From positions 24,187,001 to 24,251,000 of the forward strand of contig CP142461.1 in NCBI GenBank assembly GCA_038049695.1: 64,000 nt of DNA, written 5' to 3'. The translations under genes were made by a program, and so were the position numbers. The stretch comes from Cinnamomum chago (taxonomy: Eukaryota; Streptophyta; Magnoliopsida; Laurales; Lauraceae). Shown one piece after another: positions 2,771 to 51,666 of the stretch (the first letter of the stretch is position 1; every line of letters starts with the position of its first letter). The notes below the pieces were generated by a model. That model had not been told where the DNA came from, searched no databases, and was given only the letters and a program-made list of their open reading frames with translations.

Positions 2771-3510
2771 TTAAGTCTTTTCCATTGCTTATGCATGTCA
2801 TTATACATTCATTATCGTGTTGTTGTAGGCTACAAAAAATTGGACAAGAACCTAAAAATTACTAAAACGATATTGTTATTAGAAAATTGAACGATAATTA
2901 ACATTGAGTGAAATCGTTAGTCCTTCTCATGTTTTATGCATCTCAATTTAAATTCAGCAATTTTTTGTTGTTGGATACTAAAATTGGGTGAAGAAACTAA
3001 AAATTATGGTATTGATATCGTTATCAAAGAACAATTTTATTTTTTCTCAATAATCGAATTACATTCTCCATCGTGAGTCCTTCTAATCGTTTAGGCATCT
3101 CAATATAAAGTAACCATACTTTTGTTGTTGGAAACCAAAAGTGGATGAAGAAAAAAAAGTATGTTAACGATATCGTTATTAAAGACAAATTTCATTTTTT
3201 TCATTAATCGAAAGTGAGTGAAATCGTGATTCCTTGTCATTGTGTATCACCTCAATATAATGTCCCCACTATTCTGTTGTTGGACACCAATATTGGATGA
3301 AAAACATAGCAATTACAATTACTTCTTTGTTATCAAGAACAATTTTTCTTGTTGTCATTAAACGAAACTGAGTGAGATTGCAAGTCCTTCTCATTGTGTA
3401 TGCATCTCAATATAAAGTCCCCATTATGGTGTCGTTAGACACCGGAATTGGAAGAAGAAGATAAAAATTATGGTAACGAATTCGTTATCAAAGAACTTTC
3501 CTTTCTTTCC
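2771..3510. repeat. Five ~154-bp imperfect tandem units
   Basis: The phrase (a)tcgttatc/taaaga recurs at about 2868, 3014, 3169, 3324 and 3478, a spacing of 146-155 bp. Each unit also contains a 'tgttgttgga...accaaaattgg(a)tgaagaaa' block and a 'catctcaatataaagt' block. The units are AT-rich, diverged and non-coding. They lie between the end of LTR copy A and a transposase-like exon, so they may be intronic or belong to a decayed DNA transposon. Nothing else is recognisable up to 3868. Confidence 0.7.
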
Positions 3511-18466: not shown

Positions 18467-21400
18467 TGTCACGCCCCCGAACCGAAACCTCAGGGGCGGG
18501 AAATGGGATTAAAGCATAAATGTATTTTACTTCTCCCAGGATCCGCGTGTGTGAAGACAACACATTCTGAATATTTTGCGGAAGCATTTGTGGCGTTGCG
18601 ACCCGAAGTCCGTGGCCATCGGATTCCGCATCGCACTCAACCTTTAACACTAAGCTATCATATCAAGAACCATATCAGACTGGAGTAAACCATCACAATA
18701 AATTACAGAGCTGACAGTAACAGGATATTACATTCCCAAATATGTTCAGGTTACAATTATCAATGTACATTAATTAAGAATCCCAAGAAAAAGGCTAATA
18801 AAAGCCATACAACGATAAGCTATAAACTACTACCCAAATGTGACGTAGCTCCGATGTCAAGCTCAATGTCTACATGACATAGCCGACAAACCAACCTGCA
18901 AGGCATGGCTCCACAGCCAACAAAAACACTCAACTCGGGGCGAAGAAATCTGAACCTGAGTACCAAAAGTAGTGGGTCAGACACAACGGTCTGGCAGGTG
19001 GATGAAAAGATAACAAATATACGGAAGAATAAAACATAAGTTAAATCATGATACTCGATCAAATGCTGCATATAATTAAACGGGTGCAAAAGTCGGGAAT
19101 CTCGGGGAAAGCCTGTATTCATTCCAAGCATGGGTAAAACGTGACTATCTAATAAAACATGTGTTCATTTGAAACTTAAGTAAAAACATAAGTATACAAC
19201 AAACCAGGTATTCGTAGCAGTCTAGCAAAACCAATGTACATTTGAAACATATGTGAAAATACGGATATTTAACAAACCGGGTGTTCATTTAAAACAGGTA
19301 TAAACATAGATATCTGACAAACCAAATGTCCTTTAAAGCAGGCTCGGATATTTAACAATTCGGGTATTCCTTTAAAACATGTGTAATCATATAAATCTAG
19401 CAAAATCATTGATCGTTTGAAACATATGTAAAAGCATGGGTATTTAACAATTCGGGTATTCATTTAAAACATGTGAAATCACATAAACCTAGTAAAACCA
19501 TCGATCGTGTGAAGCATATATAAAAGCATGGGTATTCGCCCAACCGGCATTCATTTAAAACATGTGCGGGTACAAAGAACAGAAGACAATATAATAATAA
19601 CTGAATTTACATTGGAGAATATTAGCACTTGTTTAAATAACAGCTTTCATAAAGGAAACAAATCATTTATCGGAAAGCAAGTAAGCAATATAAAACGTGT
19701 CGGGTATCCAAGGAATCCGGAACTAGCAAGATGGCAACCACACGAAGCTAAGTCCTCTATCACTAAAGCGATAGAGCAAGAACTAGGCCCTGATCTCAGT
19801 CACTCGAGGTGAGGAGAAACAGGGGATCTCATATAAATACTTATACTAGGCACTGATCTCAGTCACTTGAGGTGAGGAGAAACAGTGGATCTCATGAATG
19901 CATATACATATACTATACATGACCACGGTAGCGAGCCGGGCATCGGGGACCACAGTAGCAATCTGTGGTATCGGGACAAGGCCACGGTAATAACCGGGTA
20001 GCGGGATCCAAGCTGCAGCTGGCGGGACAAGAGGGGGATCTCCAAGTCGGTGGATCAAACCAACGAGGTTATCCAAGCTTAGTGGTGCCGACTCATAGGT
20101 CAAATACAATCGAGACAATGCAATTAAATCAAGTACAATAGATATAATTAAACGGGCAAGACGGGGGTGCTCAAGGGCACACTGACATATCATGTGGTGC
20201 AATGCACTTCGGGACAAGTAACTGTTACTAGAGTAACTCCAATGCTTTCGGGAAAACAAGTCATGTAATGCAAATCTCGGGAAAAGAGGTGAAACAATGA
20301 ACTATAACAATTTCGGGTAAAAATATCGGTTTCAAGATCTATTTAAGTGAATAGGGGTCCCGTATGTCGATTATAACAATTACTTGGTACTCCTTGAGTT
20401 TGAAGACATTCCGGGCTCCTTATGCACTTTTACTATTTTAAAATCTTAACATGAGCTTATGGGTAGTACTAGATGTTACAATAGCAAGAATCAAGATTAT
20501 AAACGGTCCATCCTAGGCATGACATTAATCCGGAAACATTGAGCAACCTATTCAGTCACCGAAACGAATAGAATTCGCGATAACCAAGGAAAGGCTCGTG
20601 TTTAGATATAAAGAAGATATCGCGTCGTTCCATCCCGTTCAAGATTGAAATGGATAGAACTTCGATGCCACCGAACCAACCGTGAGGCGTGTCGGCTCAA
20701 GACATTCTCACACTTGGTCCAAACAGTCCAAAAAGGGTAGCCAGGGTCCCACCTAGAACCAAGAATTAGTGTCTAAATCAACACCATTCTTTTCTTTTAG
20801 TTTCCTAGTCTTAGAGACCTTAGATTAGGGTACAATTGGTCTTAACACTAAGGTATATACCTCTAGGACTCATAGAAAGCCCAAAGGTTTCCAAAAAAAA
20901 AACACAATATCAAATTTCACTGGACTCAAACTGAGTCCTCCGATCGATCGGTCCTAAGGGCCGATCGATCGATCGAAATTTCTGTACCAGAAATGTACAG
21001 GGTCCGATCGATCGGCCAATCGATCGGCCCAAAAAGCCTCTCAGTTAAAGACAGGCCGATCGATCGGCCTGTAGGTCTGATCGATCGGACCTGGGCGTGC
21101 AGCAGGTCCGGGACATTGAATTTTTCCTTCTTTTTTCCTTTCCTTCCAACACTTCAACAACCACAAAGAACTACAATCAAGATGACTTCAACACATATTT
21201 TTCAAGACATTAAAATGAGCTAAAGAGCTCCTCATTTCAAGTTTCTCCTTTTTCCATTCTTTCCATTCTTTCCATTCTTTCCATTCACAATAAATCTCAA
21301 GGTGGAGAAAACTCATTCATGTGAAATCATTTGAAACCTTGACAATATGATGCATACATTTTCCAAGCATGAACAAGAGGGAAATAACTCATCAATAAGC

Positions 21401-22480
21401 ACATTTCGAAATCAATATTAATCATAGTGAAGACAACTACTACAATCACCAAAACCCTTAATGAAACAAGATTTTTCTCACAAAACATGTTAATAATCAA
21501 AACAATCCATTCATCCACTTGCCTTTGACTCTAATCAAGCAAATCAAGCTCCTAATCACCTCTCAAGCTCAAGATCCACAATCTCTACAAAAACCCACAA
21601 AACAAACCCTAAAATGGGTTAAACAATGAAATGACCATGAAACCTTTCAATAATCAAGGTGGAGCTTCTCTAAGGCTAGAAGATTACAAATCTAGAGGAT
21701 GAAGAAGAATACTTACTTGGAAGGTCCTCTAATGGACAAGGTAAGCTGAAGGGAGGTCTTGTGATGGAGGGTTCTCTTCACAAATGGTATCAATGGAAAG
21801 CTTGCAAGATGAGGAAGAAGAAGGTGGTCTCCATTTCTTGATTGATGAACTATTGGTGTGGCTTGGGGATGAAGAAGCAATAAGAAGAAGAAGAAGTTGC
21901 AAGAAAAGCCCTAGGCTCAGCTGGAACAATGGTGAATGAAATGAATGAAGGAGATGGGTTCCTCTTATAAACAAGTGAGGTTTGGGTCCCACAACTTAAG
22001 GGACTTGGGTGGCTGAAATCATCTAATTTGGGACCTCGGATGGATTCGACGAAGAAGGAAGAAATGATCGTTGAAATATCTAGTTTTCAAAAAGTGTATG
22101 TTTCACGGATTTTGAGAATATCGAGTTTTGGGTACAGATTTGGTGTGAAAAGACTGTTTTGCCCTCAAGGCCAAGAAATCGAGTTTCGGATTCTCAAATG
22201 GATACGAGATCAACATGAAAGTTGTAGGATTCCTCAAGATGAATGCAACGGGCCAAAAACACACTACGAAACAAATCGGGAAAATCTCACAAGTAAAAGC
22301 AAAGCCGAAAAGGGAACCCCCAAAGGGCCCCACAAGCTACCAAAGCACTCAAAAGCTCAAAACTAGAAGAAAATCATTCTAGCTCACGAACTCAACCCAA
22401 AAAATACTAATCCCACTAAAAGAAACTAATCCACAAATAAAACAACACTAATCCAAGAGATTAGGGGTCGGGTTCTCACA
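18467..22480 (+). mobile_element. Solo long gypsy-type LTR, copy B (4014 bp), TSD aatgg
   Basis: Starts TGTCACGCCCCCGAACCG, ends GGGGTCGGGTTCTCACA, flanked by aatgg at 18462-18466 and 22481-22485. Similar to 56091-60315 over its whole length except the motif island, which here (about 20935-21110) is built of ccgatcgatcgg. No gag, pol, PBS or second terminal copy is present inside, so the whole 4 kb is read as one LTR. LTRs this long with this start are typical of Tekay/Del chromoviruses (inference). Confidence 0.9.
20935..21110. repeat. CCGATCGATCGG motif island in LTR copy B
   Basis: About eight copies of gatcgatcg(g) with spacers such as 'cctaagggcc' and 'cctgtaggtct'. Sits where copies A and 56091-60315 carry GCGGTTAGCCGC and copy 44829-47926 carries TCGCTCGAGCGA. 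Confidence 0.8.
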
Positions 22481-25400
22481 AATGGTCCTGTTCAATGCAT
22501 GACACATGCACTAATGAGATATATCCAGGAAAGACCTCCCGTGACTAAGGTAAGTCACCCTGAACACAGGAGAGTTTCTCATTATAACTTATACCAAGAT
22601 GAAGTGCCCAACTCCACCTTTCAGTTATGAACAAATTAGTTATTTCCAGTGTCCATGACTTAGACCTTTCGGTGTGCAGTCACTACACACCCAAGTCATT
22701 TACTGGAAAACAATGGGCCTTACACAACCATACATATACACAAGTAATAAGAGAAAGATGTCATTCTATTAAATAACCAATGAATATCCAGTAACAGAGA
22801 TGTGAGTGCAGTCAGTGGGCTTTAGGGCATACACCAATCCCAACAAGGAGTTCTACAGAATTATGGTAAGCAACCGTCCTTGGCTCATGGACGATCAGAG
22901 CATTGTGCCCAAGTCTACCTTCTTCTTTGGCGATGTAGTCCCTGACGACTTGACATACCAAAGGAGATGTTTTCAGTTCTCTTACACAGTTGATGGTGAG
23001 GAGAGAACTATTTCTACCCAGTCGACCTTTGATCGGACTGTCTCGATCATGAGTCTTTCTCCCACGTGTCCCAAGAGGGAGGATCCTCCAAGCTGGGTGA
23101 AGAGGACCCATGTGATAAAGACCGGGGTTTTTGTTGGCGGCCCTTCCAGATATACGGAGAAGTCGCTTGTCCGTATGGACATGTTGATGCCCTCCAGTGG
23201 CTACCAACGTTCTGACCATCCGTCGGTCAGTTTGAGACCGGTTGGCCTTGACATTTTTCGGGGTGACTGCAGCAATTGGGTGAAGCCTTTTTTACTTCGT
23301 GGCCGTTTCAGTGCTAATTCGAGCTGGGAATTGCGGACTGATCACACTCTGCAGGTTGGTGGAGCCATTTTGAAGGAGGCCGGGATCTTCGACGCAGTTC
23401 GAGCTTTTCGGAAGACCGTGGTTTTCTCTGATGAGGTCTTCATGGCCATGCTAGAGTCATTCCTCCCATACACCAACACCTTCATTGTGATGAACAGTGA
23501 GATTGGTTTTACTTTGAAGGAATTAAGCGTCATCATCGGGCTGCCTATCCTTGGCAAACTCTATGAGGAGTTTATGCCTATTGACAGCGTTCTTGAGGAG
23601 CAGTCCGAGGGGTTCAAGCTCCTATACTTTTAGCTTGTCGCCTTCTATGATTTTTTGAAGGAGAAGGAGGGCGCGAAAGTCCAGTATAGCAATTGGAAGA
23701 ATTGTAGCTCCAACTTTTTTGACGGCGAAGAGTCTTCTGATGGTTTGGCCCAAGATGCTAGGGCCAAGAACCCAGGTTTGAAGAAGATTTCCGTCATGCG
23801 AGATGACTTGAAGAAGTTCTTCGGGGAGTACAAACGCCATTTATCCTAACATTGCACTGCGGAGAGATCTTGCTGTTTACCTCACTTATTGGTTGGGTGA
23901 TACTCTTTTTGCTGGAGGAGATGGAACACACAACAGGCCGCACTGTATTTTTTTGGCTTGTCATATGGCGTTCGGAGAGCGGCTGGCTTTGGTGCCTACT
24001 CTTTACTCCTATTTATGTATTGAACTGCAGGCTGCTGCTTTCTTGGTTCGGCTGGGGCTTCCTATGAATAGGGTATTTTCAACCCATATTTTTTATTCGT
24101 GGTATGTGTACCACTGTCCCGGCTTCCACCGATTAGAAGCTGCACAGGATGATGACCCTTTCATGATTCGATTGGCTAGGGGGACAGCCGTTAACGAATC
24201 TCTTTTGTTTGCCCGTTTGAGGATCCGACGGTTCAAGGACGTCGAGATCGGGCAATCTTCAGTGAAGCTTTCTCCAGGTTTGCGGAAGAAAGCTTTTGAC
24301 TTTGGTGCCTCCCGTGATTCCGCCAGGGCGGGGTCGGGAAGACACCACTCCTTGACCAATGCAGAAAAGGGGTGGCTTTTTAACATACATGTTGGTACGA
24401 TGGTGTACCGGAGACTTCTTTTTGTTGACATCCAGCCATATGTTCCCTCGCGTTTCGCGCTGCAGTTGGGCTTCTCTCAAGGCGTTGTTGGAGCGCCTTC
24501 GAGCATGGTGAAGTGTTTTGGAGGTTTGCAGGATAGGAGAAGTGCATGGGCCTTTTACAGTGCGGAGGACACTACCGCCATGATTTCCTATCTTGAGTTG
24601 CCCATTTTTCGGACTGCTGGGTTCACGAAATGGGTCGTGGAAAGCTTTTCAGTGTGCCGGGGGCTTTCCAAGAAGGAGCTTGATGTCAAGCAATCTCCTG
24701 GGAAGGGTCTTGGCAGATCAGATGGAGTCCGGCGAGAGGAAGTTTTGACTTTCCTTTCCGGAGAGAGGCACAAGATCGGATTTCTCAGTGAACATGACAT
24801 CATCAGATCAGAAGCTGTACAAGAGATACCTAGTGAGGTCTTGGAACAGCTAGAAGAGGAGGAAGCCGAGATCGACACTTGGATGCAAGCGGGACTAACG
24901 AAGACTTCCTTGGAGTCTACTGGGAAGAGCAGACCATCCGGTGAGGAATCAAGCGAAGATCCTGACTTTGACAATGAGGCGGGTACTTCTAGTAAATCAA
25001 CCCATAGAAGCAAAAGGAAGAGAGGGCATTGCCGTAATAAGAGACGACACGATGACTCTCCTGATCTAGAAGTCCCTCCCACCATTGCTAAAGAGATGTC
25101 AGGGGATGCTGATGAGCCTCCAGAAAAGAGGCGCTGAGAAGAAGAGACCGCTGATGAAGGTATGGTTCTTCCTCTTTCTTTCTCCATTTCTTTCATTGAA
25201 GTTTCTTTTTTTTTTTTCTTTCTCTCCTTTTTTTAGTGGAAGATGATGATTCGGTGATGCCTGAGGTCCCGGCTGATGAAGAAGTGACGGATCCGATTGC
25301 GGCATCTGGAGAAGAACCGAGGGACTCTGGAGTGATTCCAGAATCTTCACTTGGTATGAATTCTTTGTATTTTCTTTTTTTTTTGTCTGTGCTGTCATTT

Positions 25401-27500: not shown

Positions 27501-27837
27501 TTTTGTTTAAAGACACGAGGGTCGTAAATTTTGATTTAAAACCATTTTTGGATGTAAAAGTCAGGGTGGACTACGGTGGAAATTCCTGAGTCCTGATTTT
27601 GTTTCAAACCATGAATTTTTGGTTCAAGGATAAAAAATTTGGTCAAGTCCGGGAAGAGGCTCCTAAACTTGGATTTTTGGATTTTTTTGAAAATGAAACT
27701 ATGAAAGTAAGCATTGTTTTGAAATTTTAGAAATCTCAACAGAAGGATGAAAAATCTAAAAGAGGCGGGTTTGACGAGCGAGTACCTGAGAATAGGCTTT
27801 TGGCCATGCAAGCATTGCTCTGACCCAGTGGCGTAAG

Positions 27838-29354
27838 TGAAAGTCCTTGGATCTTAACCCTAGAGGGGGGGGGGGGGGTGAATAGGGTGTGCTACAAATA
27901 TGACCAATTCAAATCAATTTTTAACTCTTTAAGGTAAACTAGTCACATAAGATGATTTACCAAACAAGATGCGGAGGCTAAGAAACCAATCGCCACAAGT
28001 AAACACACTACACAAAGATTTATAGTGGTTCGGCCTCAATGCCTACGTCCACTACCGGCTTGTGAACCAATCACCCCACCAGATTTCCACTAATTATGCG
28101 TTTTACTAGGTTAAGCAATAACCTTTACAATGTTGTTTTTACTAGGCTCAACAACAACCTTTACAAGATGCTTTTCAAGGCTAAGCAATAACCTTTACAA
28201 TGTGCTTTTCTAAGGCTAAGCAATAACCTTTACAAATGAAGATTTTCTCTAAGAAGGTGTCTCTTCAAGAACACTCTAAGAGATACAATTTAAGCACAAA
28301 TAAAATGCCTCTTAAATAGGCTGATATGAAGGTGTGTTTCAAATTACAAACATACACTAAAATAAGCTAAAGTGTGTGCACAAGTGTATGAAAGTTTTAC
28401 TTCAATCAATTTCTACAATGTAGCTCTTAAATGAATGCTTGATGCATTTTAAAATGTAAGCTCAGAATAATAATGATTGAAGATAAATGCTAATCACAAG
28501 AAGGATTCAAACAACTTAAAGAAATGAACTAAATCAAGTTGTATGAATTTTAAAGTCTAAGAACACTTGTGATTTAGACAAGAGTGTTTGCAAACCATTC
28601 TTAATATGCCAAAGATGATAATGAGTTTGCTAAACATCCCCTCCAAAGCTAGACATCATGCATTTATGAAAATCCAAAGGTTTAAACATGCATTGATTCT
28701 AATTTGAATGGAAATCAAAATAACTAGAAAGAGATACCTTTTTAAAACTCAAGCATTTGATTTCCAATGACCTTCTAGCACTCTTGGCTTATTCCACTTC
28801 CTTTGGCTCCAATAGGGTCTCAAAGATTCATTAGTCAAGCCTCTAAAAAGGTTGGAATAAAATGGACTTTATAGGGAAAAACAGTCCAACGGCTAGTTGG
28901 TTAGGTGGACCTGGGCCTGGCTCGGTCGACCGGGTACACTGGCCCAGCTTCCAGCAGGCCAGTTGGGCCGGTCAACCGGGCACAGGGGCAGGTCGACCGA
29001 CCAAACAAGCCTGGGTTGAGTTCCTGAGATTTTTCTAAAAATCTAAAGATGCACTATGGAACTCAAGGCTAGTGTACCTTATGCATACTAAAATGATTCT
29101 AATAATGAAGAATGTATGCAAGGCACAAACCTAAAAACTCAATTTGATTTTCCAAAATAAATGCACAAAGAATTAGGTTTTCAAAAGTGTTTGGATTCTA
29201 AAACATGCATGAATCAAATTCATTTCAAAAACATGTGCAAATGCAAGTAGAATCCAAGTTTCCAAAGTCAAAAACTAAGAGCTCATGTGTGTGATCATTT
29301 GATAGTGAATGTGAATGTGCATCCATCAAAATTGCAACAAACAAGAACCTAACA
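27838..29354 (-). mobile_element. 3' LTR of the pol-less copia derivative (1517 bp)
   Basis: Similar to 33876-35461, but 69 bp shorter, the large difference falling in the GGTCGACC island (about 28895-29005). Carries a G homopolymer (27866-27880) near its 3' end. Its start on the minus strand is TGTTAGGTTCTTG, against TGCTAGGTTCTTG in the 5' LTR. Confidence 0.9.
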
Positions 29355-30153
29355 ATCTCCCCCTTTGCAATTTGATGGCAATTCCTATGATCACAGCACT
29401 TAAGGGACTTTGGATCTTCTTGACAGCTCTGAACTTGAAATCACTTGAATGTAGCTTCGACCTCATGACCGATTCGTCGAGAGCATTTGACTTTAATCTT
29501 TCCAAGCTGATTTCTCCCCCTTGGTTAGAGCTCTCCCTTGCTCTTAATAACCAAGCAATCTTCACTGAGGCTCTTGAAGTTGATCTCCCCTTCAGTTTGA
29601 TCTGTTCTTCTCTCTGTCTGATCTTCTATTCTTCTATTCCCCTTAGACCTTGCATATATCTGATCTTTATCTCCCCTTGTGTCTTTAAGAGATCTGTTCT
29701 TTTTCTCCCCCTTTGTCATCGAATTGCAAAGGAACCTGTATACATGAAAAAAAAACATATACCTTTCAGTAGCACCTATTACCTGATGAAATTGCAAATG
29801 TTATGCAGAACAGGTTGTCATGTATATAGATTTGTGTATGCATTGTTTGAATGAATCTACGATAGCATATATAAATAGATGTAACAAATTAAAGCTTCAA
29901 AACAACAGAAAGCATTCATCAATAGAATCACAAAGGAGAAAACAAGATTAAATATGAAACTGTACTTTCATTGATTAACCTAGAAAAGTCCAGTCCAAGA
30001 TTCATTAAGTACTTGACCATTTATATTAACAAGAGAATATGATCAGTACTCAAAACAATAGGTTAGATGATAGAAAATGAATACAACATGTGAAAAACAC
30101 TCTATCACTACCCAAAATAACCCCAAAATAGACAAGAAAACACTCCTAAAAGA
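29355..30153. other. 3' non-coding region of the copia derivative
   Basis: On the minus strand this lies between the H3-tail ORF and the 3' LTR. Contains several CTCCCC-rich tracts (about 29355, 29515, 29580, 29640, 29670, 29705) that are polypurine on the element strand. The plus-strand open frame over it lacks any domain and is compositional. Confidence 0.55.
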
Positions 30154-30317
30154 CTAAGCAGAGTCTGGAGGAGATGGAGGCATAACGTCATCATGTCGCC
30201 TACAGCTCTTGGAGATGTTCGAAAGATACTTCAAAGTCTTGCTCATCTTCCCTGAGACCTCTTAACGAAATTCATGAAATTCAGTCCGCATAGAAGCAAC
30301 CACCTGCTCCAAGGATG

Positions 30318-31319
30318 TCAAGCGCTCCTTCGTAGTAGGCCGAGGAGGGGGACGGGGCTGTCGTGTCTGAGCGGGCGGGTCAAGCTGGGGCTGCGCTGAT
30401 CTGCAATCTCTAAATCTGCAGCCTCTAAATCTTCGTCTCCTTCAGCTACAGGATTTGCCCGAGGAGGTGGAGGAAGCTTCATCAGAAGAATGTTGGTCTT
30501 GTTGAAGACTGTAGTTGGCTCTGGTCTATCTGAAGGAGGAACCACCACCCCAAATGAACTGGCAAGCTGAGTAATGAGATATCCAAAAGGAGCAGCACAT
30601 GGCTGGGAGCCAGTGATCACGCGTATGATGTGGTGCATAATGATAGACGGTAGACACATGGGCACCCCAGAAATCACATTTTGAAGAAGATTCGCCATGT
30701 AAGGAGTGACTTCTGCCCTATTCCCTTTCCTTGGATATATAGAGTGAGTGAAAATGATATGAATAATCCGAAGAACGGGAATCATAGAGGAGGCCTGAAG
30801 ACAATTTTTGGCTGACCACTCTTCAGGATGACCACATAGAGCAGTGGTGACAGCCTCTCTCTCATCGAGTGGAAGAACTTCTGAAATAAACTTTGGGCCA
30901 CTCGACTTGGAGATGCCAAGGATGGAAGAGATCGAATCAATGGTAACTGTCTCCTTACCATGAACGAAACTAATGGTGAAGGAGTTTGCAGATGAAGAAC
31001 AAATAGATTTGTATAGGCCATGGATAGAGGAGGCATATGTCTTGCCACTCCATGTCAGAATTTTTTCCCACCCAATGGCCTCTAAGATGGCAGGGACTTG
31101 GTAGTCTACTAGGTCACCGACCACACAGAATTTTTCAACTATGATCCCTTTGTTCCTAAACGATTTCAGAACAGAAGATGGGGAACGGAGAGGGTTGAAT
31201 TTAATCTCACGAGGTCGACCAAGCTCCGGAGAAGTGGAGGGAGACCTATGGGAATAAGAAGCTTCACCGGTTTTGGATTTCTTAGGTGGTCTCCTCGCAG
31301 TCTGTTTAGTTCGAGCCAT
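30318..31319 (-). CDS. Histone H3-tail-mimic ORF with plant-transposon-protein-like domain
   Basis: 333 codons from ATG (31317-31319). The N-terminus reads MARTKQTARRPPKKSKTG: after Met removal, the first eight residues equal histone H3 (ARTKQTAR, including K4); H3 K9 is replaced by R and the rest differs but stays basic and NLS-like. A Ser/Pro linker (to ~45) precedes a globular part (~50-285) with the pattern of the 'putative plant transposon protein' domain (SWISS-style motifs seen: TIDSISSILGI, EEWSAKNCL, YPRKGNRAEVTPYMANLL, FGYLITQL), often found on plant retroelements. It ends Pro-rich; a frame change near 30385-30400 leads to a coil-like segment (RLTSLEQVVASMRTEFHEF), one TAA, and a stop at 30154, so the original protein was probably longer. 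No catalytic motif is recognised and expression is unknown. The domain name is my recall, not a search. Confidence 0.8.
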   Translation of the reverse strand: MARTKQTARRPPKKSKTGEASYSHRSPSTSPELGRPREIKFNPLRSPSSVLKSFRNKGIIVEKFCVVGDLVDYQVPAILEAIGWEKILTWSGKTYASSIHGLYKSICSSSANSFTISFVHGKETVTIDSISSILGISKSSGPKFISEVLPLDEREAVTTALCGHPEEWSAKNCLQASSMIPVLRIIHIIFTHSIYPRKGNRAEVTPYMANLLQNVISGVPMCLPSIIMHHIIRVITGSQPCAAPFGYLITQLASSFGVVVPPSDRPEPTTVFNKTNILLMKLPPPPRANPVAEGDEDLEAADLEIADQRSPSLTRPLRHDSPVPLLGLLRRSA

Positions 31320-31790
31320 TGTAAGAGAACAAGGAAGAAATGCTCAAGGTAATGATAGATGGCTGAAACTAGGCACAACTGTTGCTAATTTAGAAGAAAA
31401 ATTGGTTCAGGAATTTTAACAAACAGTTGGTGTGCAGGTTCTGGAGCTGGGAGCTTCACACAGAATGGGGCTAAGAAGGGGGTGTCCAAAAGACTACAGA
31501 AGCTCCTAACACAAACAAGAAACCACAAAATAGTACACAAATAAACAGAAACCAGTCAAACAGAGAAGGGAAAACTAAGGTTGGAAAACGACAGAGAATG
31601 GTGAGAGAAACACAGTGAGAAGAACAACTGGACAGTGAAGAGGAGGAAGAGCACGAGAAATGGGAGACAAAACCAGAGAAGAGGGGGCTGAACCAGGAGA
31701 GGGATACAGGAAAATGAAGGAAAAAAAACAGAGGGGAAACACGAGCTGCTGCGGTCGACCTTCTGAGAAGGGAAAGAGCAGGTTCTGTTT
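31320..31790. other. Leader region of the H3-tail ORF
   Basis: On the minus strand this is a CT-rich leader upstream of the ATG at 31319, consistent with a 5' UTR. No TATA box or gene was recognised. Its right edge joins the chimeric gypsy-LTR insert at about 31791. Confidence 0.45.
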
Positions 31791-32275
31791 AAAAGACTGT
31801 TTTGCCCTCAAGGCCAAGAAATCGGTTTTTGGGTTCTCAAATGGATATGGGATCAACATGAAAGTTGTAGGATTCCTCAAGATGAATGCAACGGGCCAAA
31901 AACACAATACGAAACAAATCGGGAAAATCTCACAAGTAAATACAAAGCCGAAAAGGGAACCCCCAAAGGGCCCCACAAGCTACCAAAGCACTCACTGAGT
32001 AATGCTACTTGGACAAACTTTTTGGCCAGAATTTTGGCCAACCCATATGGTTTCCATTGAATATCACTATGATATTCAATGGAAACCATATGGGTTGGCC
32101 AAAATTCTGGCCAAAAAGTTTGTCCAAGTAGACTTTTTGGCACTCAAAAGCCCAAAACTAGAAGAAAAACCCTTCTAGCTCACAAACTCAACCCAACAAC
32201 TACTAATCCCACTAAAAGGACTAATCCACAAACAAAACACCACTAATCGAAGAGATTAGGGGTCGGGTTCTCACA
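31791..32275 (+). mobile_element. Gypsy-type LTR 3' end, plus orientation (chimera part C1)
   Basis: Matches 59983-60315 and 22151-22480 from 'aaaagactgttttgccctcaagg' through the terminal 'ggggtcgggttctcaca'. It is interrupted by a hairpin MITE (31995-32139). At 32276 it is joined to the inverted 5' half of the same LTR family. Confidence 0.85.
31995..32139. mobile_element. 145-bp hairpin MITE with perfect 61-bp arms
   Basis: Bases 32006-32066 and 32070-32130 are exact reverse complements with a 3-base loop (cta). Short non-palindromic ends (ctgagtaatgc, gactttttg) complete it. It is flanked by gcactca at 31988-31994 and 32140-32146, and the uninterrupted target is visible at 60176-60190. 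TIR class is not assigned; the 7-bp apparent duplication might be part of an 8- or 9-bp one with a mismatch. Confidence 0.9.
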
Positions 32276-33526
32276 GTTCTAACGATCGATGGTTTTGCTA
32301 GAGTTATATGATTACACATGTTTTAAAATGAATACCCGAGTTATTAAATGTCCATGCTTTGGAATGCGTTTTAAATGACACTCGTTTTGTTAGATCCCGA
32401 TGTTTATACATGTTTTAAGTGAATACCCGGATTGCTAAACATTCGTGCTTTGTTTTAAATGACACTTGTTCTGCCAGGTCACTATGTTTATACCGGTTTC
32501 AAATGAATACCCGATTTGTTAAATATCCCTGTTTTGAAATATGTTTTAAATGACACGTGTTTTGTCAGGTTTCTATGTTTATACCTGTTTCAAATGATTA
32601 CCCGAGCTATTTAACATCCATGCTTAAGAATATGTTTTAAATAACACGCGTTTTGCCAGATCCCTATGTTATACCTGTTTTAAAGGAATGCCCGATCTGT
32701 TGAAGATCCATGCTTTGAAATGTGTTTAAATGAATGTGGTTTTGCCAAACTTCCATATTCATACATGTTTTCCACGAACACCCGATTGTCAAATATCTAT
32801 GCTTTTATAGATGATGTAAATGAACATATGCTTTATTAGATCTTCCTGTTTTAACCATGTTTGAAAAGAATACATGTTTTATCCGAGATTCCTGAGTTTT
32901 CACCCGTTTAATTATATGCAGCATTTTGAGCAAATAGCATGATTTATCATTTGTATTATTATTCGCTATATTGTGTTCTTTTCATCCACCTGCCAGACCG
33001 TCGTGTCTGACCCACTACTTTTGGTACTCAGGTTCAGATTTCTTCGCCCCGAGTTGAGTGCTTTTGTTGGCTGTAGAGCCATGCCTTGCAGGTTAGTTGT
33101 CGGCTATGTCATGTAGACATTGAGCTTGACATCGGAGCTACGTCACATTTGGGTAGTAGTTATAGCTTATTGTTGTATGGCTTTTGTTAGCCTTTTCTTG
33201 GGATTCTTAATTAATGTACATTGAGAATTGTAACTTGAATATATTTGGGAATGTAATATCCTGTTACTGTCAGCTCTGTAATTTATTGTGATGGTTACTC
33301 CAGTCTGATATGATTCTTGATATAATAGCTATACGCTAAAGGTTGAGTGCGACGCGGAATCCGATGGCCACGGACTTCGGGTCGCAACGCCACAAATGCT
33401 TCCGCAAAATATTCAGAATGTGTTGGAATGTGTTGTCTTCACACACGCGGATCCTGGGAGAAGTAAAATATATTTATGCCTTCATCCCATCTCCCGCCCC
33501 CGAGGTTTCGGTTCGGGGGCGTGACA
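32276..33526 (-). mobile_element. Gypsy-type LTR 5' part, minus orientation (chimera part C2)
   Basis: The minus strand begins TGTCACGCCCCCGAACCG at 33526 and follows the LTRs at 56091 and 18467 for ~1.25 kb, through the phrase 'ctgccagaccgtcgtgtctgacc' (plus orientation, ~32990) and the 'aatacccg..ttgtt..aatatcc' tandem blocks, up to 'gattacacatgttttaaa'. It abuts C1 tail to middle. Confidence 0.85.
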
Positions 33527-33774: not shown

Positions 33775-33875
33775 TCAAACACAAATCTAGGGTTATAAAC
33801 TCTAGGTTTTCACACCTAATCAAGAGTTCCAAACACTTGATCCTAAAATATAGAGCACGAGGCTCTGATACCAAT

Positions 33876-35461
33876 TGAAAGTCCTTGGATCTTAACCCTA
33901 GAGCGAGGGGGGGGGGGGTTGAATAGGGTGTGCTACAAATATGACCAATTCAAATCAATTTTTAACTCTTTAAGGTAAACTAGTCACATAAGATGATTTA
34001 CCAAACAAGATGCGGAAGCTAAGAAACCAATCGCCACAAGTAAACACACTACACAAAGATTTATAGTGGTTCAGCCTCAATGCCTACGTCCACTACCGGC
34101 TTGTGAACCAATCACCCCATCGGATTTCCACTAATTATGCTTTTTACTAGGCTAAGCAATAACCTTTACAATGTTATTTTTACTAGGCTCAACAACAACC
34201 TTTACAAGATGCTTTTCAAGGCTAAGCAATAACCTTTACAATGTGCTTTTCTAAGGCTAAGCAATAACCTTTACAAATGAAGATTTTCTCTAAGAAGGTG
34301 TCTCTTCAAGAATACTCTAAGAGATACAATTTAAGCACAAATAAAATGCCTCTTAAATAGGCTGATATGAAGGTGTGTTTCAAATTACAAACATACACTA
34401 AAATAAGCTAAAGTGTGTGCACAAGTGTATGAAAGTTTTACTTCAATCAATTTCTACAATGTAGCGCTTAAATGAATGCTTGATGCATTTTAAAATGTAA
34501 GCTCAGAATAATAATGATTGAAGATAAATGCTAATCACAAGAAGGATTCAAACAACTTAAAGAAATGAACTAAAACAAGTTGTATGAATTTTAAAGTCTA
34601 AGAACACTTGTGATTTAGACAAGAGTGTTTGCAAACCATTCTTAATATGCCAAAGATGATAATGAGTTTGCTAAACATCCCCTTCAAAGCTAGACATCAT
34701 GCATTTATGAAAATCCAAAGGTTTAAACATGCATTGATTCTAATTTGAATGGAAATCAAAATAACTAGAAAGAGATACCTTTTTAAAACTCAAGCATTTG
34801 ATTTCCAATGACCTTCTAGCACTCTTGGCTTATTCCACCTCCTTTGGCTCCAATAGGGTCTCAAAGATTCATTAGTCAAGCCTCTAAAAAGGTTGGAATA
34901 GAATGGACTTTATAGGGAAAAACAGTCCAACGGCTAGTTGGTCGGGTCGACCTGGGCCTGGCTAGGTCGACCTGGCCCAATGGTCAAAAAGCCCCAACGG
35001 CTAGTTTCCCGGTCGACCTGGGCCTGGCTCGGTCGATCGGGTACACTAGCCCAACTTCCAGCAGGCCAGCTGGGCCGGTCGACCGGGCACAGGGGCAGGT
35101 CGACCGACCAAACAGGCCTGGGTTGAGTTCCTGAGATTTTACTAAAAGTCTAAAGATGCACTATGGAACTCAAGGCCAGTGTACCTTATGCATACTAAAA
35201 TGATTCTAATAATGAAGAATGTATGCAAGGCACAAACCTAAAAACTCAATTTGATTTTCCAAAATAAATGCACAAAGAATTAGGTTTTCAAAAGTGTTTG
35301 GATTCTAAAACATGCATGAATCAAATTCATTTCAAAAACATGTGCAAATGCAAGTAGAATCCAAGTTTCCAAAGTCAAAAACTAAGAGCTCATGTGTGTG
35401 ATCATTTGATAGTGAATGTGAATGTGCATCCATCAAAATTGCAACAAACAAGAACCTAGCA
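33876..35461 (-). mobile_element. 5' LTR of the pol-less copia derivative (1586 bp)
   Basis: Pairs with 27838-29354. The GGTCGACC island (about 34930-35110) has an extra ~69-bp block containing 'ggtcgacctgggcctggct' again. The G homopolymer near its 3' end is 33906-33919. Confidence 0.9.
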
Positions 35462-35469
35462 GTAAGTCC

Positions 35470-36196
35470 TCAAGGGTAGTATCGCTTCAGGAATTTGCTG
35501 CTAATGGGCAGCATACATCTGTCGCCCTCCATGTTTAGGAGAGTGTATGCGCCGTTGGAGAACACTTTGTCGATGACGAAGGGTCCCTCCCATTTTGGTT
35601 CGAGTTTGCCTTTGGATTTGTGGGCAAAAACCATTGGCCTTTTTACTCCAAGAACCAAGTCGCCATTCTTATAGGCGCGTTGCCTGACCTTCTTGTCGAA
35701 AGATCCTGCCATGCATGCTTGGTACAACTCAATGCTTTGTAGAGCTTTAAGCCGTCTTTCATTGAGATTGTCCAGTTCTTGGAGTCTCAATTTGACATTG
35801 CTTTCTTGCGTCATGTCATTTTGTAAAGATACCCTTAAAGAAGGAATTTGTACTTCTAAAGGGACAACAGCTTCGCACCCATAGACCAAAGAGAATGGTG
35901 TGGTATGGGTTGGCCCTCGAACGGTGGTTCGATAAGCCCACAAAGCTTCAGGTAATTTGTCGCCCCAGTCTCCTTTGTGACTAGAGACCATTTTCTTAAG
36001 GGTTTTGCAGAGTGTCTTATTAAAGGCTTCTGCTAGTCCGTTCGCTGTCTGATTGTACGGAGTCGAAGGAAAACTTTGGATTTTGTACTTGTCGCAGAAC
36101 TTGTAGAATCGGTGACTCCGGAATTGCGGTTCGTTATCATGGACGAATCTTCTACGTATGCCGAAGCGACAAATGATGTTGGTGTGCAAGAAATGA
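35470..36196 (-). pseudogene. Ty3/gypsy integrase C-terminal fragment
   Basis: The minus-strand frame shows the second catalytic Asp in FVHDNEPQF and the catalytic Glu in TANGLAEAFNKTL, then LPEALWAYRTT and TPFSLVYGCEAVVPLE, the standard gypsy integrase core, followed by the GPF.VIDKVFSNGAY and LKRYYP C-terminal segment. It stops at 35470. The first catalytic Asp and the HHCC zinc domain are absent because the sequence is cut at 36196 by the chromodomain element's LTR. The copia derivative inserted just after its stop codon (TSD gtaag, 35462-35466). Confidence 0.88.
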
Positions 36197-36637: not shown

Positions 36638-37009
36638 TTAAGCCATGGATGACCTCGTCCGTTTCTGAGCCAGATACTCTGCGATCTCCTTTTCAAACTG
36701 CCACAAAGCGGTTGCCTTGTCCCAAGAGGCTTCATTCTCTTCAGTACCCTCCCATTGTATCAAGTAACTAGTCCTCTGATTCTTCTTGCTTTCGCCCTCA
36801 GTTTTGTCAGCCAAAATCTTTTCAATTTTGTGATTGAACTGAGCACGAATCGTCGGTGGAGCCCTCCGAGACACTCCTCGGCTTATGTCACTTGGATCTT
36901 CATGATAGGGTTTGAGAAAACTAACATGAGAGACTGGATGCACCTTGATCCTTTCAGGCAGATTCAGTCTGTTGATGGACCCAATTTTTTCTTTCCTCTC
37001 CTCTCCCAT
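36638..37009 (-). pseudogene. Chromovirus integrase C-terminus with chromodomain
   Basis: The minus-strand frame contains LPERIKVHPVSHVSFLKPY, the segment that links gypsy integrase to its chromodomain, then KIEKILADK, SYLIQWEGTEENEASWDKATAL and EKEIAEYL, a recognisable chromodomain (aromatic positions Y and W retained). It stops at 36638, just before PPT and LTR, the normal place at the 3' end of chromovirus pol. Upstream coding is lost at about 36972, where the tandem G-like repeat begins, so the first ~12 codons of the open frame belong to that repeat. Confidence 0.85.
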
Positions 37010-39458
37010 CCGCCCCCGGGGTCACCGAGAGGAATCGAATGGAGGGAGGAAAGGGGGAGAAAAAAGGGCATCTATATTTTGTACGGGTATGCCAGATTTT
37101 CTATTCTACTTGGAATTCAGAGATGGTGATCCGGAGATCCACCTTTGCAAGTGGAAAGGAAATCAACCTTTTTTCTAACTTTCCATTGCACACATATTTA
37201 AGAAAAGAGACATTTTTTTAATGCCGTGAGAGGCGATTTTGTTTGCCGTAAAAGGCGATTTTGTGCCGTGAAAGGAGATTTTGTGCCGTGAAAGGCGATT
37301 TTTCCGTGAATGGCATTTTACAGATCTCATCAATAAAGAAAGACAAGAAATGTGATTTTTTGTCTCTTAAAGAAAATACAAAGTACAACAGAAAAGTAAG
37401 AAAGAGAATCTGACTTCTCAGGAGATTGCGGGGACTAGTTCAGATCGACGGTCGCAAGTCATGTATGGACTTCGCCATTGTCCTTCAGATGAGAACGCTT
37501 GATGCTTTGATTCTTTGGCTTGGCTTGGACTTCAGTTTTTTAGAGGACAAGGACCAAGGGAAGGTCCTATATCCAATGAAAAATGAAGAGTCGGGCTGAA
37601 GAGCCGCGTCTTGGCCATGATGAGTAGGAGAAGAGAAGGCTTTTTCTTAGAGAGGAGGGGGGCATAGCTTATGATTGGTTGACTTCTTTGTCAGGCAAGA
37701 GGCTGGTTTCACCTCCTTCATGTATGTAAGAGGATAAAATCAGTTTTCTTTGAGAAGGGCTAGGTTGGCTTTGCAGATGTTCGGAACCTCCTTTGTTTTG
37801 GTGAAGGTCTTGGGGACCAAGTCTTAGGGTAGACCTGGTTCTCTGCAGGTTGAGGCTTCGTGTGGTTCCCACGGGCTTCAGGTTTCTTCGTGTTCGTCCT
37901 TGGTCTCATGGCAGTGACACGTTGCAGGGCGATCTTTTGCTTCTTAGCAGGTGCGATTTTCTCTACGAGAAGTGGGAACGGTCCCAGCTACCCGAAGATG
38001 ATAATCCGGGGAGTAGAGGTCGACCCGGTGTTCTGAGATTTTCCGAGGGAGGTGACGCTTTGGCAGCTAGCAGGGCACTTATGAGTGCACTTGTTCTGCT
38101 TCTCCTAGAGCTTGAGCTGGTACTTGTTCTAATCGAAAGTGATGGTTAATGAAGCTGCCATTGCTAGTTTTGGAAAACTTCTGAAACAAGACCACTTCCA
38201 TTAGTAATCACAAGAATACAGTGATCATAAATGGGAAAGAACTATGGTTTTGTCTTTTCAAATCGCTCGAGGGAGCATGGCCCAGTCCAATCGAGGTGAA
38301 GAAGGCAAAAAGCCATAGAGGATACAATTGTTCTGAACGCAAGTATAGGAGGCTCAGAGCGAGCATTCCAGTGACTGCTAGAAGCAATTGTAGACCATAA
38401 TTCAAATTACCGAGAAGCGAGGCTCACTCGAGGTAAGATGATATAAGGTTGGAGATACAAATGTGTCGGTCGTGAATACAGTAGACCCGGAAGGGCGTAC
38501 TAGCACCGCTAGGCACAAATGTTGCAAATCGCGTCCTTGGAATATGCACGAGATGGGATTTTTTGAAAGGTCAAAATTGGATTCATAAATGAGTGCAAAT
38601 GGTATTCCAATTTGAACGTAAGCTACAAGCGATTTCCGCGAGCTTTTAACCGAAAGGGAAGTAACCAAGATTTCTCAGATATAAACCCAAAAATGACAAT
38701 TTCTTTTCGAAAGTTCTTTTTTTTTTTGAAATTTTTTTTTGAAAGGAACACAAATGTTTTCAATTCGGTCTTATGAAGCGTTAGTAGATAGATCAGCCCC
38801 CAGGTAAGGGTAGGATTACTTAATGAACCCGTTTGGAGGACCCTTGCCTCGAACAGTCTAGCTGTCTCCACACTCTGATCAAGGCTTTTCTTAGATTTAC
38901 TTTGGTCAAAGAACAGAATTGGTGCGACCTTAGTGGGTTTTGAAAATAAAATTTTTGATCTTTTTTTTAATGGATTCATCAAAGAGAATGAACGGTGTCC
39001 CAATCCGAATAAGGGCTCAAACATTTCTGTGAGCACTAAATCCGAAAAGCAGGGGACAAAACTTTCTTAAATTTGATTCCGGAAAAAAGAAAAAAAAAGT
39101 TTTTAAGGAGTTTTTGTTTGGAAATCCCTATCGGACTCATCAAAGAGAAAAGGTGGCCCATTCCCCGATAAGAACAATAGCTGCGAACATTTCTGTGAGC
39201 TATCATGTTCAAAGAAGAGAGGATCAAAGTTTCTCAAAATTGAATCCAAGAAAGAAAAATTAGATTTTCTTTCTTTTTGAATTTTTGTTTCTGAAATAAG
39301 AAAGAATGGAAATAAGGTCAAAGGTAGAAAGTTTCCAAAAATCCCATCTCATATTTTTTTTTGGATGCAAGATCTAACATAGGCCACCAACTAGAAAAGA
39401 GCCTAAGAATTCAAGCATCGTGTTCTCAGATGAACCGGTCCCACCGGGTGTGCCAGCT
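36973..39458 (-). repeat. G-family internal region, tandem copy R1 (2486 bp)
   Basis: A direct repeat of 39459-41928 at an offset of 2486 bp, with roughly nine of ten bases matching by eye. Contains a CT/GA-rich 200-bp start, 'ccgtgaaaggcgattttgt' short repeats (37230-37320), and on the minus strand a frame opening MAASLTITFD near 38145 that is broken by stops here. It adjoins the chromodomain fragment on the left. Confidence 0.75.
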
Positions 39459-41928
39459 TGATGGACCTGATTTTTTCTTTCCTCTCGTCTCCCATCCGAC
39501 CCCGGGGTCGCCGAGAGGAATCGAATGGAGGGAGGAAAGGGGGAGAAAATGGGCATTTATATTTTGTACGAGTATGCCAGATTTTCAATTCTACTTGGAA
39601 TTCAGAGATGGTGATCCAGAGATCCACCTTTGCAAGTAGAAAGGAAATTAGCCTTTTATCTAACTTTCCATTGCACACATATTTAAGAAAAGAGAGGCGA
39701 TTTTATTTGCCGTAAAAGGCGATTTTGTGTCATGAAAGGCGATTTTGCGCCGTGAAAAGCGATTTTTCCGTGAAAGGCATTTTATAGATCTCATCAATAA
39801 AGAAAGACAAGAAATGTGATTTTTTTGTCTCTTAAAGAAAATACAAAGTACAACAGAAAAGTAAGAAAGGTAATCTGACTTCTCAGGAGATTGCGGGGAC
39901 TAGTTCAGATCGACTGTCGCAAGTCATGTATGGACTTCGCCATCGTCCTTCAGATGAGAACGCTTGATGCTTTGGTTCTTTCGCTTGGCTTGGACTTCAG
40001 TTTTTTAGAGGATAAGGACCAAGGGAAGGTCCTATATCCAATGAAAAATGAAGAGACGGGCTGAAGAGCCGCGTCTTGGCCATGTTGAGTAAGAGAAGAT
40101 AAGGCTTTTTCTTGGAGGGGGGGGGGCGCACATGATTGGTTGACTTCTTTGTCAGGCAAGAGGCTGGTTAATCCTCCTTCATGTATGGAAGAGGATAGAA
40201 CCTGTTTTCTTTGAGAGGGGCCAGGTATGCTGGCTTTGCAGATGTTCGGGACCTCATTTGTTTTGGTGAAGGTCTTCGGGAACAAGTCTTAGGGTAGACC
40301 TGGTTCTCTGTAGGTTGAGGCTTCGTGGGGTTGCCACGGGCTTAAGGCTTCTTCGTGTTCGCCCTTGGTGTCATGGCAGTGACACGTTGCAGGGCGATCT
40401 TTTGCTTCTTAGCAGGTGCGGTTTCCTCTACGGGAAGTGGGAATGGTCCCAGCAGCCCGAAGATGATAGTCTGGGGAGTGGAGGTCGACCCGGTGTTCTG
40501 AGATTTTCTGAGGGAGGTGACGCTTCGACAGCTAGCAGGGCGCTTATGATTGCGCTTGTTCTGCTTCTCCTGGAGCATGAGCTGGTACTTGTTCTCATCG
40601 AAGGTGATGGTTAATGAAGCTGCCATTGTTAGTTTTGGAAAACTTCTGAAACAAGACCACTTCCATTAGTAATCACAAGAATACAGTGATCATAAATGGG
40701 AAAGAACTATGGTTTTGTCTTTTCAAATCGCTCGAGGGAGCATGGCCCAGTCCAATCGAGGTGAAGAAGGCAAAAAGCCATAGAGGATACAATTGTTCTA
40801 AACGCAAGTATAGGAGGCTTAGAGCGAGCATTCCAGTGACTGCTAGAAGCAATTGTAGACCTTAATTCAAATTATTGAGAAACGAGGCTCACTCGAGGTA
40901 AGATGATATAAGGTTGGAGATACAATGTGTTGGTCGTGAATACAGTAGACTCGGAAGGGCGTACTAGCACCGCTAGGCACAAATGTTGCAAATCGCGTCC
41001 TTGGAATAGGCACGAGATGAGATTTTTTGAAAGATCAAAATCGGATTCATAAAAGAGAACAAATGGTATTCCAATCCGAACGTAAGCTACAAGCGATTTC
41101 CGCAAGCTTTTATCAGAAAGGGAAGGAACCAAGATTTCTCAGATGTAAACCCAAAAATGACGATTTTCTTTTTCAAAGTTTTTTTTTTTTAATTTTTTTT
41201 TGAAAGGAACACAAATGTTTTCAATTCGGTCTTATGAAATGTTAGTAGATAGATCAGCCCCTAGGTAAGGGTAGGATTACTTAATGAACCCGTTTGGAGG
41301 ACCCTTGCCTCGTACAGTCTAACTGTCTCCACACTCTGGACAAGGCTTTTCTTAGATCCACTTTGGTCAAAGAACACAATTGGTGCGACCTTAGTGGGTT
41401 TTGAAAATAAAAATTTTGATCTTTTTTTTAATGGATTCATCAAAGAGAACAAACGGTGTCCCAATCCGAATAAGGGCTCAAACATTTCTGCGAGTGCTAA
41501 ATCCGAAAAGCAGGGGACCAAACTTTCTTAAATTTGATTCCGAAAAAAAGAAAAAAAAATTTTAAGGAGTTTTTTTTTTTGAAGAGTTTTTTTTTTTTTT
41601 TGAAATCCCTATCGGACTCATCAAAGAGAAAAGATGGCCCATTCTCCGATAAGAACAATAGCTGCGAACATTTCTGTGAGCTATCAAGTTCAAAGACGAG
41701 AGGATCAAAGTTTCTCAAAATTGAATCCAAAAAAGAGAAATCTGTTTTTCTTTTTCTTTTTTTTAAATGAGAAAGAATGGAAATAGGTTCAGAGGTAGAA
41801 ATTTTCCAAAAATCCTATCTCATGTTTTTTATTGGATGCAAGATCCAACATAAGCCACCAACTAGGAAGGAGCCTAAGAATTCAAGCATCGCGTTCTCAA
41901 ATGAACGGCGTCCCACCAGGTGGTGTTT
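39459..41928 (-). repeat. G-family internal region, tandem copy R2
   Basis: The second tandem copy. On the minus strand it follows a G-family LTR 3' end (41929-42160) directly, as an internal region would, beginning AAACACCACCTGGTGGGACG. A minus-strand frame at 40342-40626 (94 codons, opening MAASLTITFDENKYQ) is intact here; it has no domain I recognise and may be the first ORF of the element. Confidence 0.7.
40342..40626 (-). CDS. Unrecognised short ORF of the G-family interior
   Basis: 94 codons, Lys/Arg/Gln-rich, opening MAASLTITFDENK and ending ANTKKP. The homologous frame in R1 (near 37870-38150) has stop codons. No gag zinc knuckle or other known motif was found. It may be only the 5' end of a once longer frame, because the downstream minus-strand sequence has scattered similar short frames. 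Confidence 0.35.
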   Translation of the reverse strand: MAASLTITFDENKYQLMLQEKQNKRNHKRPASCRSVTSLRKSQNTGSTSTPQTIIFGLLGPFPLPVEETAPAKKQKIALQRVTAMTPRANTKKP

Positions 41929-44415: not shown

Positions 44416-44828
44416 TGGAGTATCCCTGCTCATTTTTTCTTGCTCGTCATAGTTAAGTGATGATATCGCCGCCTAAATCAGATTGAGGAGAAAAAACCTT
44501 TCTTCTTTTGGATGTTGGCGGCTTGGTGATGGAGGTTGCATGGTGATGATGGGTGAAGTTAAAGATGATGGTGAAAGAAAAATGAGAGAGATGAGTACCG
44601 GTCAAAGTATAAGGTTGTTTAGGGGCTAGGAATTGGATTGGTGGGGAAGGGGGATGTAGAGGGAATAAGATGAAATGATGATGTGGGTAAGGGTGGTTTG
44701 GAAATGGGCAGTGGTTGTGCAGAGAGATGAGAAAAAGATGTTGAGAAAGAGGGGCTGTAAAGAGAGGAAAAAAATGAAAGAAAAGGAGAAAAGGATGGGT
44801 TCAAGAAAGAGAGAGAAAAGGTGAGTTA
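44416..44828. other. Purine-rich stretch inside the inverted repeat, no gene
   Basis: Contains 'gatgatgg', 'gagagag' and 'gaaaaggaga' runs; the short minus-strand Ser/Pro-rich frame at 44619-44804 is compositional. Confidence 0.45.
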
Positions 44829-47800: not shown

Positions 47801-47926
47801 CAAAATCGCCCAAAACTAGAATCCAAGCTATTCCAAACCCAACTTAGTCAAAATCACTAATCAAGCTTAGCACTAACACGCTACTTAATTAGTACTAATC
47901 GGGTTCACTCGGGTCGGGGTCTTACA
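44829..47926 (+). mobile_element. Long gypsy-type LTR, copy D (3098 bp), no clear TSD
   Basis: Starts TGTCGCGACCTCGGACCGCG and ends GGGTCGGGGTCTTACA. Closely similar to the reverse complement of 1-2770 from the first base. The flanks are agtta and ggagg, so no 5-bp duplication is seen, unlike 18467-22480 and 56091-60315. Insertion in an inverted repeat followed by deletion on the right is one explanation. Motif island at 46310-46600. Confidence 0.82.
46310..46600. repeat. TCGCTCGAGCGA motif island in LTR copy D
   Basis: About ten copies of (c)gctcgagcga(a) or gttcgaacgaac spaced by 15-30 bases. Same relative place (about 1480 bp from the LTR start) as the GCGGTTAGCCGC island of copy A, its closest relative. 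Confidence 0.8.
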
Positions 47927-51651: not shown

Positions 51652-51653
51652 AT

Positions 51654-51666
51654 TGGTATCAGAGCC
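51654..51666 (+). promoter_or_regulatory. Primer-binding site (initiator tRNA-Met)
   Basis: TGGTATCAGAGCC, three bases after the LTR end, complementary to the 3' end of plant initiator tRNA-Met. The usual PBS of Ty1/copia elements. Confidence 0.95.

Follow-up and report, generated by a model that had tools for sequence, protein, structure and literature searches.

A histone H3-like N-terminus conserved on the PF20167 protein of a non-autonomous LTR retrotransposon family in Cinnamomum chago

To our knowledge, the known histone mimics come from viruses and host regulators. The mimic motif of influenza NS1 is C-terminal and that of G9a is internal, whereas in the open reading frame (ORF) family described here the H3-like sequence stands at the N-terminus of a protein encoded by a transposable element. 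The SNAG sequence differs from that of H3 and its binding has been demonstrated; in contrast, the tail of the ORF family is identical to H3 over residues 1–6, and its binding is a prediction. SNAIL1, the GFI1 SNAG domain, G9a and NS1 are described as histone mimics (PMC5663869, PMC5896174). As in the present family, the very first residues of SNAIL1 and GFI1, which are nuclear proteins but not histones, imitate the H3 tail through their SNAG domains, in their case for LSD1 (PMC5896174). NS1 and G9a, a parasite and a host protein respectively, likewise carry a short H3-like motif (PMC5663869).

An account of a sunflower Athila element describes an additional ORF that contains PF20167 and for which nuclear localization is predicted (PMC11728184), so that this plant LTR retrotransposon likewise carries an extra PF20167 ORF. 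Unlike the element in our window, which lacks pol and has ends of the Ty1/copia type, Athila is a Ty3/gypsy element. The word "histone" was absent from the main text of the Athila paper (PMC11728184) and from that of PMC7264820. Among the papers listed by literature searches on ARTKQTAR/MARTKQTAR, histone mimicry and PF20167/Transposase_32, none describes such an element, judged by titles and the openings of abstracts. LARD, TRIM and TR-GAG are types of non-autonomous plant LTR elements. They likewise have LTRs, a primer binding site (PBS), a polypurine tract (PPT) and a target-site duplication (TSD) without pol and are probably mobilized in trans; unlike them, the element described here contains a conserved ORF that is under purifying selection and gives PF20167 as its only Pfam match above the cut-off.

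The window is the whole stretch of C. chago DNA that was analyzed, 64,000 nucleotides in length. Positions 30318–31319 of its minus strand form an ORF of 333 amino acids that starts ATG GCT CGA ACT AAA CAG ACT GCG AGG AGA and encodes the N-terminus M-ARTKQTARR; the coordinates, strand, start codon and MARTKQTAR sequence given by a first-pass annotation were all confirmed. Copy alignment and selection counts delimit an H3-tail-like hexapeptide, ARTKQT, as residues 1–6 after Met (31299–31316), and a basic NLS-like patch, here RRPPKKSKTG (31266–31295), whose function we infer. The Pfam domain PF20167 (Transposase_32, "putative plant transposon protein") was matched by residues 82–258, with Met as residue 1 (30546–31076), at E = 9.3e-15 and 55.4 bits, above the curated cut-off of 45 bits. 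PF20167 was the sole Pfam match above its cut-off in the conserved ORF, and it was matched at E ≤ 0.01 by all 27 full-length relatives, the first one with 57.9 bits. No histone family was among the Pfam matches of the window ORF and its full-length relatives, and a search of PDB sequences with the window protein gave no match up to E = 10. Histone H3 was therefore rejected as the identity of the product, and the earlier statement that the rest of H3 is absent held, the H3 likeness stopping at residue 8. The replacement of K9 by Arg was also borne out, Arg occupying this position in 115 of 121 aligned copies.

Among the 108 relatives that retain the ATG, the ORF has a length of 380–392 amino acids in 28 and of at least 340 in 38. 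The protein of the family consists, in order, of ARTKQT, a free residue, a basic patch (usually R-R-P-S-K-K-S-K-T-G), a Ser/Pro-rich linker, PF20167, a P/Q-rich linker and a coil-like C-terminus. The tail, domain, P/Q-rich linker and C-terminus align across 27 full-length proteins, "coil" being a judgement by eye, and tail peptides of the family include ARTKQTWRRPSKKSKTG and ARTKQTARRPPKKSKTG. Comparison of the reading frame with the 28 relatives identifies the window ORF as a truncated copy of the 380–392 residue protein. As its frame diverges from those of the relatives near the end, the product has only 333 residues, and this copy is broken. A remnant of the coil-like segment, recognized from the intact relatives, lies in another frame at 30154–30317 of the minus strand and contains a further stop at 30262–30264. 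A domain plus a coil had been proposed for this protein; the PF20167 part of that proposal stands, and the coil is missing from the truncated product of the window copy.

The ORF is part of an LTR retrotransposon with paired TG...CA LTRs, a TSD, a PBS and a PPT, all of which read on the minus strand. Upstream of the ORF are the TSD CTTAC (35462–35466), the 5′ LTR (33876–35461), identified by its pairing with the other LTR and its exact ends, and the PBS TGGTATCAGAGC (33862–33873), which we take to be of the initiator-tRNA-Met type. The 5′ leader directly before the ORF (31320–31790) is kept at least partly in 25 of 29 other copies. Self-comparison identified the segment at 31791–33526 as a later insertion, a rearranged piece of a repeat, here called X, that is foreign to the element; X was rejected as a part of the element because it also splits a copia pol in the window, and in another copy (L012) X lies after the ORF. 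Downstream are the PPT AAAGGGGGAGAT (29355–29366), the 3′ LTR (27838–29354), identified by self-comparison and exact ends, and the second CTTAC (27833–27837). Over 1517 aligned bases the two LTRs show 27 differences (K80 0.018, measured on 33873–35458 versus 27835–29351), which at a substitution rate of 1.3e-8 indicates a young insertion of about 0.7 million years. The element adjoins the end of an ORF at 35470–36189 with weak, below-cut-off integrase matches, by eye a Ty3/gypsy remnant.

No gag-pol ORF was found between the LTRs of the element in the window, and it was therefore rejected as an autonomous Ty1/copia element. Among 29 other copies (L002–L030, with 1.5-kb flanks), the 3′ LTR begins 1.76–2.05 kb after the start codon in 25, thus about 0.8 kb behind a full-length ORF, and did not show at this distance in four (L002, L008, L012 and L022); four of the 29 have an LTR end on the 5′ side of the start codon, at a distance of 56 to 1141 bases. 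Clustered copies recur every 6.1–6.3 kb, and this period, less one LTR of an assumed length of about 1.5 kb and the ORF, leaves too little room for gag-pol. Evenly spaced copies of the H3-tail ORF at C10:21361676-21380631 (about 6.31 kb), C4:78064053-78076764 (about 6.34 kb) and C9:34238168-34251290 (about 6.09 kb) resemble tandem arrays with common LTRs.

A Ty1/copia element separate from the ORF element occupies 50119–62575 of the plus strand and is a candidate for the helper lineage by its Pfam matches, LTR ends, PBS and PPT. It contains matches to copia gag (PF14223), integrase and RVT_2. The LTR ends, the PBS with its flank and the PPT with its flank are near-identical in the two elements, and by these features, shared with a gag-pol copia, the ORF element is a non-autonomous Ty1/copia relative. 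From this near-identity we infer that the copia lineage is the likely source of the machinery; a Ty1/copia lineage whose LTR ends, PBS and PPT match those of the family probably mobilizes the copies in trans.

DNA coding for MARTKQT with any codons occurs at 364 places in the 1.06-Gb genome; as controls, the reversed pattern and two peptides with the same residues in shuffled order were each found once. An H3-type continuation (Lys9 plus a Ser/Thr-type codon) follows at 15 of the 364 places, and MARTKQTAR-R is found at 107 sites. Twenty MARTKQT places outside the 121 aligned copies, chosen by codon variant and hence non-random and MARTKQT by construction, comprised 16 with the tail of the ORF family and four H3 genes or pseudogenes; in copy L166 the family tail is recognizable over only about 20 residues. 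As the 16 include divergent subfamilies (MARTKQTARRPSKKSKTN... and MARTKQTARRPLKKSKTY...), the tail predates the group closest to the window copy. The copies all belong to a single genome, and no relatives were found in non-plant collections of viral contigs (protein search and alignment), genome contigs (alignment) and phage or plasmid sequences (tblastn).

Conservation of the tail was scored in the best 121 of 1650 candidate copies in the genome, which are 71–100% identical, so that the sample is biased to near relatives. Reading frames taken straight from the protein match had N-terminal frame breaks or replaced sequence in eight to ten copies. Alignment of the DNA restored the tail in all except L066 and L074, the two copies that lack Lys4, in which the N-terminus is rearranged. 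Of the 121 copies, 86 match ARTKQT fully, 25 differ from it at one residue, seven at two, one at three and two at all six; the individual residues are kept in 114 (Ala1), 102 (Arg2), 118 (Thr3), 119 (Lys4), 110 (Gln5) and 109 (Thr6) copies, and 83 copies begin exactly with MARTKQT. Unrelated N-termini in homologous ORFs, which would have spoken against a conserved tail, were thus not what we observed. Residue 7 varies freely (Trp in 42 copies, Phe in 33, Ser in 27 and Ala in 14), and the two residues after it are Arg8 in 114 copies and Arg9 in 115. The first-pass annotation had treated eight residues as the unit, which does not hold since the seventh, Ala, is variable among copies; the conserved unit is ARTKQT, with a free residue and then a basic patch behind it. 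In the 60 bases before the ATG, column conservation averages 0.675, one block about 20–30 bases upstream being better kept; in the first 30 codons it averages 0.92 for the first and second codon positions and 0.72 for the third. We conclude that conserved coding starts at the ATG of the ORF.

Selection was analyzed on a tree of 117 of the 121 copies built from codons 11–317, with changes inferred by parsimony and binomial tests applied to the substitution counts. The copies left out were L066 and L074, with their rearranged N-termini, and L049 and L119, which are identical to L048. Residues 1–6 gave an omega of about 0.11 on internal branches (S = 25, N = 7) and about 0.19 on terminal branches (S = 61.5, N = 29.5), compared with 0.15 and 0.44 for the domain, 0.25 and 0.59 for residues 8–17, and 0.28 and 0.66 for residues 18–36. 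Neutral evolution of the N-terminal codons, named beforehand as an observation that would count against a selected tail, was therefore not seen, and residues 1–6 are under purifying selection. All 24 changes inferred at T3 were synonymous, and T3 and K4 together had 39 synonymous and no replacement changes. The abundance of synonymous changes in residues 1–6 speaks for a constraint at the protein rather than the RNA level. Residue 7 gave an omega of 0.75 on internal branches (S = 4, N = 14) and 0.36 on terminal branches; being nearly unconstrained on internal branches, it forms a free spacer flanked by two motifs. These tests presume that copies evolve independently along the tree and would be disturbed by gene conversion. 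We are highly confident of the family, its architecture and the purifying selection as given here.

Conserved residues of the H3 N-terminus are therefore found at the N-terminus of a non-histone protein, as expected of an H3-tail mimic. A Met before Ala is normally removed. As Ala follows Met in this protein, removal of Met would expose Ala1-Arg2-Thr3-Lys4-Gln5-Thr6 as a free end, as on the H3 tail. The basic patch would then carry the protein into the nucleus, the C-terminus may multimerize it, and host proteins that recognize the first six residues of H3 would bind or modify the tail. Proteins that contact the start of H3 include H3K4 readers (PHD fingers), LSD1-like demethylases, K4 methyltransferases and Haspin; candidate partners of the tail are PHD fingers, LSD1-like demethylases, H3K4 methyltransferases and a T3 kinase. 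The tail might titrate silencing-promoting readers of unmodified H3, or it might bring an H3K4-type activity to the chromatin or RNP of the element itself. Binding or modification by a host H3-tail protein, with a decoy or recruitment role, is our tentative explanation, to which we give slightly less than an even chance. A reader ligand is favored because a constrained ARTKQT, a free residue 7 and a basic patch fit a six-residue ligand joined to an import signal, and we consider a role as decoy or recruiter more likely than one in steering integration. The full scenario, in which a nuclear, multimerizing retrotransposon protein shows ARTKQT as a decoy or bait to host H3K4/T3 readers and modifiers and thereby escapes silencing, in a family with hundreds of copies, is conceivable but has perhaps one chance in three. 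The kept H3-like tip suggests that elements may imitate a chromatin tail of their host. Extra ORFs of plant retrotransposons are mostly of unknown function, and here selection keeps the exact residues used by K4 readers. The fate of such a genomic parasite depends on chromatin. If the explanation is true, it would be a case of histone mimicry by a transposable element and a handle on the interplay of elements and silencing.

The main alternative, which we consider almost as plausible as mimicry, is that the N-terminus is one long basic tail for nuclear import or for RNA or DNA binding, and that its match to H3 is coincidental. Stretches upstream of 20 other PF20167 domains, a non-random sample of mostly long open frames from 150 hits in the genome, contained no ARTK start; 17 had starts of the MAPK, MVPK or MPPK type and three were unclear. 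Given these basic N-termini in other PF20167 families, ARTKQT could have arisen by drift on a basic tail. Other PF20167 ORFs in the genome start MAPKK..., which recalls plant H2B N-termini and is probably generic. Constraint is also not special to the H3-like stretch, as the neighboring RRPSKKSKTG is conserved too, with K12 (seven synonymous and no replacement changes) and K15 (close to the same) about as strict as K4. Lys12 is among the 14 of 318 codons without a replacement change, and the replacement share of residues 1–6 is higher than that of 15 six-codon windows in other parts of the ORF. ARTKQT is thus constrained like the best parts of the domain rather than uniquely. Moreover, the H3 likeness ends at residue 8, with Arg at the position of K9, and eight of 28 full-length ORFs deviate from ARTKQT, all at R2, Q5 or T6, the other 20 being exact. 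Against a tail kept merely for its charge, Lys4 is never replaced by Arg in the 121 copies, all changes at T3 are synonymous, and the constraint extends to Ala1 and Thr3, which a charge-only role would not need. Furthermore, R2 changes chiefly by CpG decay (12 of 17 non-Arg codons are of this type), whereas the NLS-like stretch tolerates substitutions, with K, R or M at residue 13 and P or E at residue 10. By a rough estimate, a match over these six residues would arise by chance in a given protein family with a probability of about 1e-7. Protein families number in the tens of thousands and the reader was predisposed to see H3, so that coincidence is still a realistic possibility, and since the family need have arisen only once, a single coincidence would suffice. 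Even then, antibodies to H3 N-terminal marks might cross-react with the transposon protein.

It is improbable, in our estimate, that the tail was acquired from the 5′ end of a host H3 gene and that all likeness beyond residue 8 has been lost since then. Ala7 occurs in several divergent subfamilies (11 of the 16 additional places, besides the 107 MARTKQTAR-R sites), and ARTKQTAR may for this reason be ancestral; however, midpoint rooting gave Trp7 as the root state, and an outgroup root based on six distant PF20167 domains was unsupported. Codons 9–11 of some copies, such as L159 (AGA CCA CCC), are each one replacement step from the H3 codons for K9, S10 and T11, but three such residues are weak evidence, and no H3 likeness was seen past residue 11.

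Positions along chromosomes were compared after omission of near neighbors in clusters, leaving 117 of the 121 family copies and, for the presumed helper copia, 100 of the 104 copies scored. That the tail steers integration through H3-tail readers in target chromatin, as had first been proposed, is very unlikely: the family does favor chromosome middles (median relative position 0.77, with 3.4% of copies in the outer 30%) more than do the 150 other PF20167 hits (0.43 and 30.7%; p = 2e-21), but the presumed helper copia, which in the window has a gag ORF with another start than the ARTKQT ORF, is distributed much as the family is (0.72 and 8%; p = 0.14), so the tail need not steer insertion.

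Several further repeats were observed in the window. Repeat X is about 4 kb long, and copies or parts of it lie at 31791–33526, 18463–22480, 56087–60315, 4–2771 (reverse) and 44828–47821, one copy being rearranged with one end inverted. X interrupts the Ty1/copia pol between the end of the reverse transcriptase and a segment at 60265–60777, which looks like RNase H by eye and has no Pfam match. Within the X piece of the ORF element, positions 32005–32131 form a perfect inverted repeat with 62-nt arms separated by 3 nt; the matching repeats at 22345–22351 and near 60180 continue without it. Two plus-strand ORFs lie at 22806–25137, the first with a weak, below-cut-off match to a plant mobile domain (PF10536, E = 6e-6). 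Finally, 36972–39450 and 39458–41922 are adjacent direct repeats of about 2.47 kb that are 91% identical, and the former extends over the start of an ORF on the minus strand that matches a chromodomain (36638–37009, E = 2e-6).
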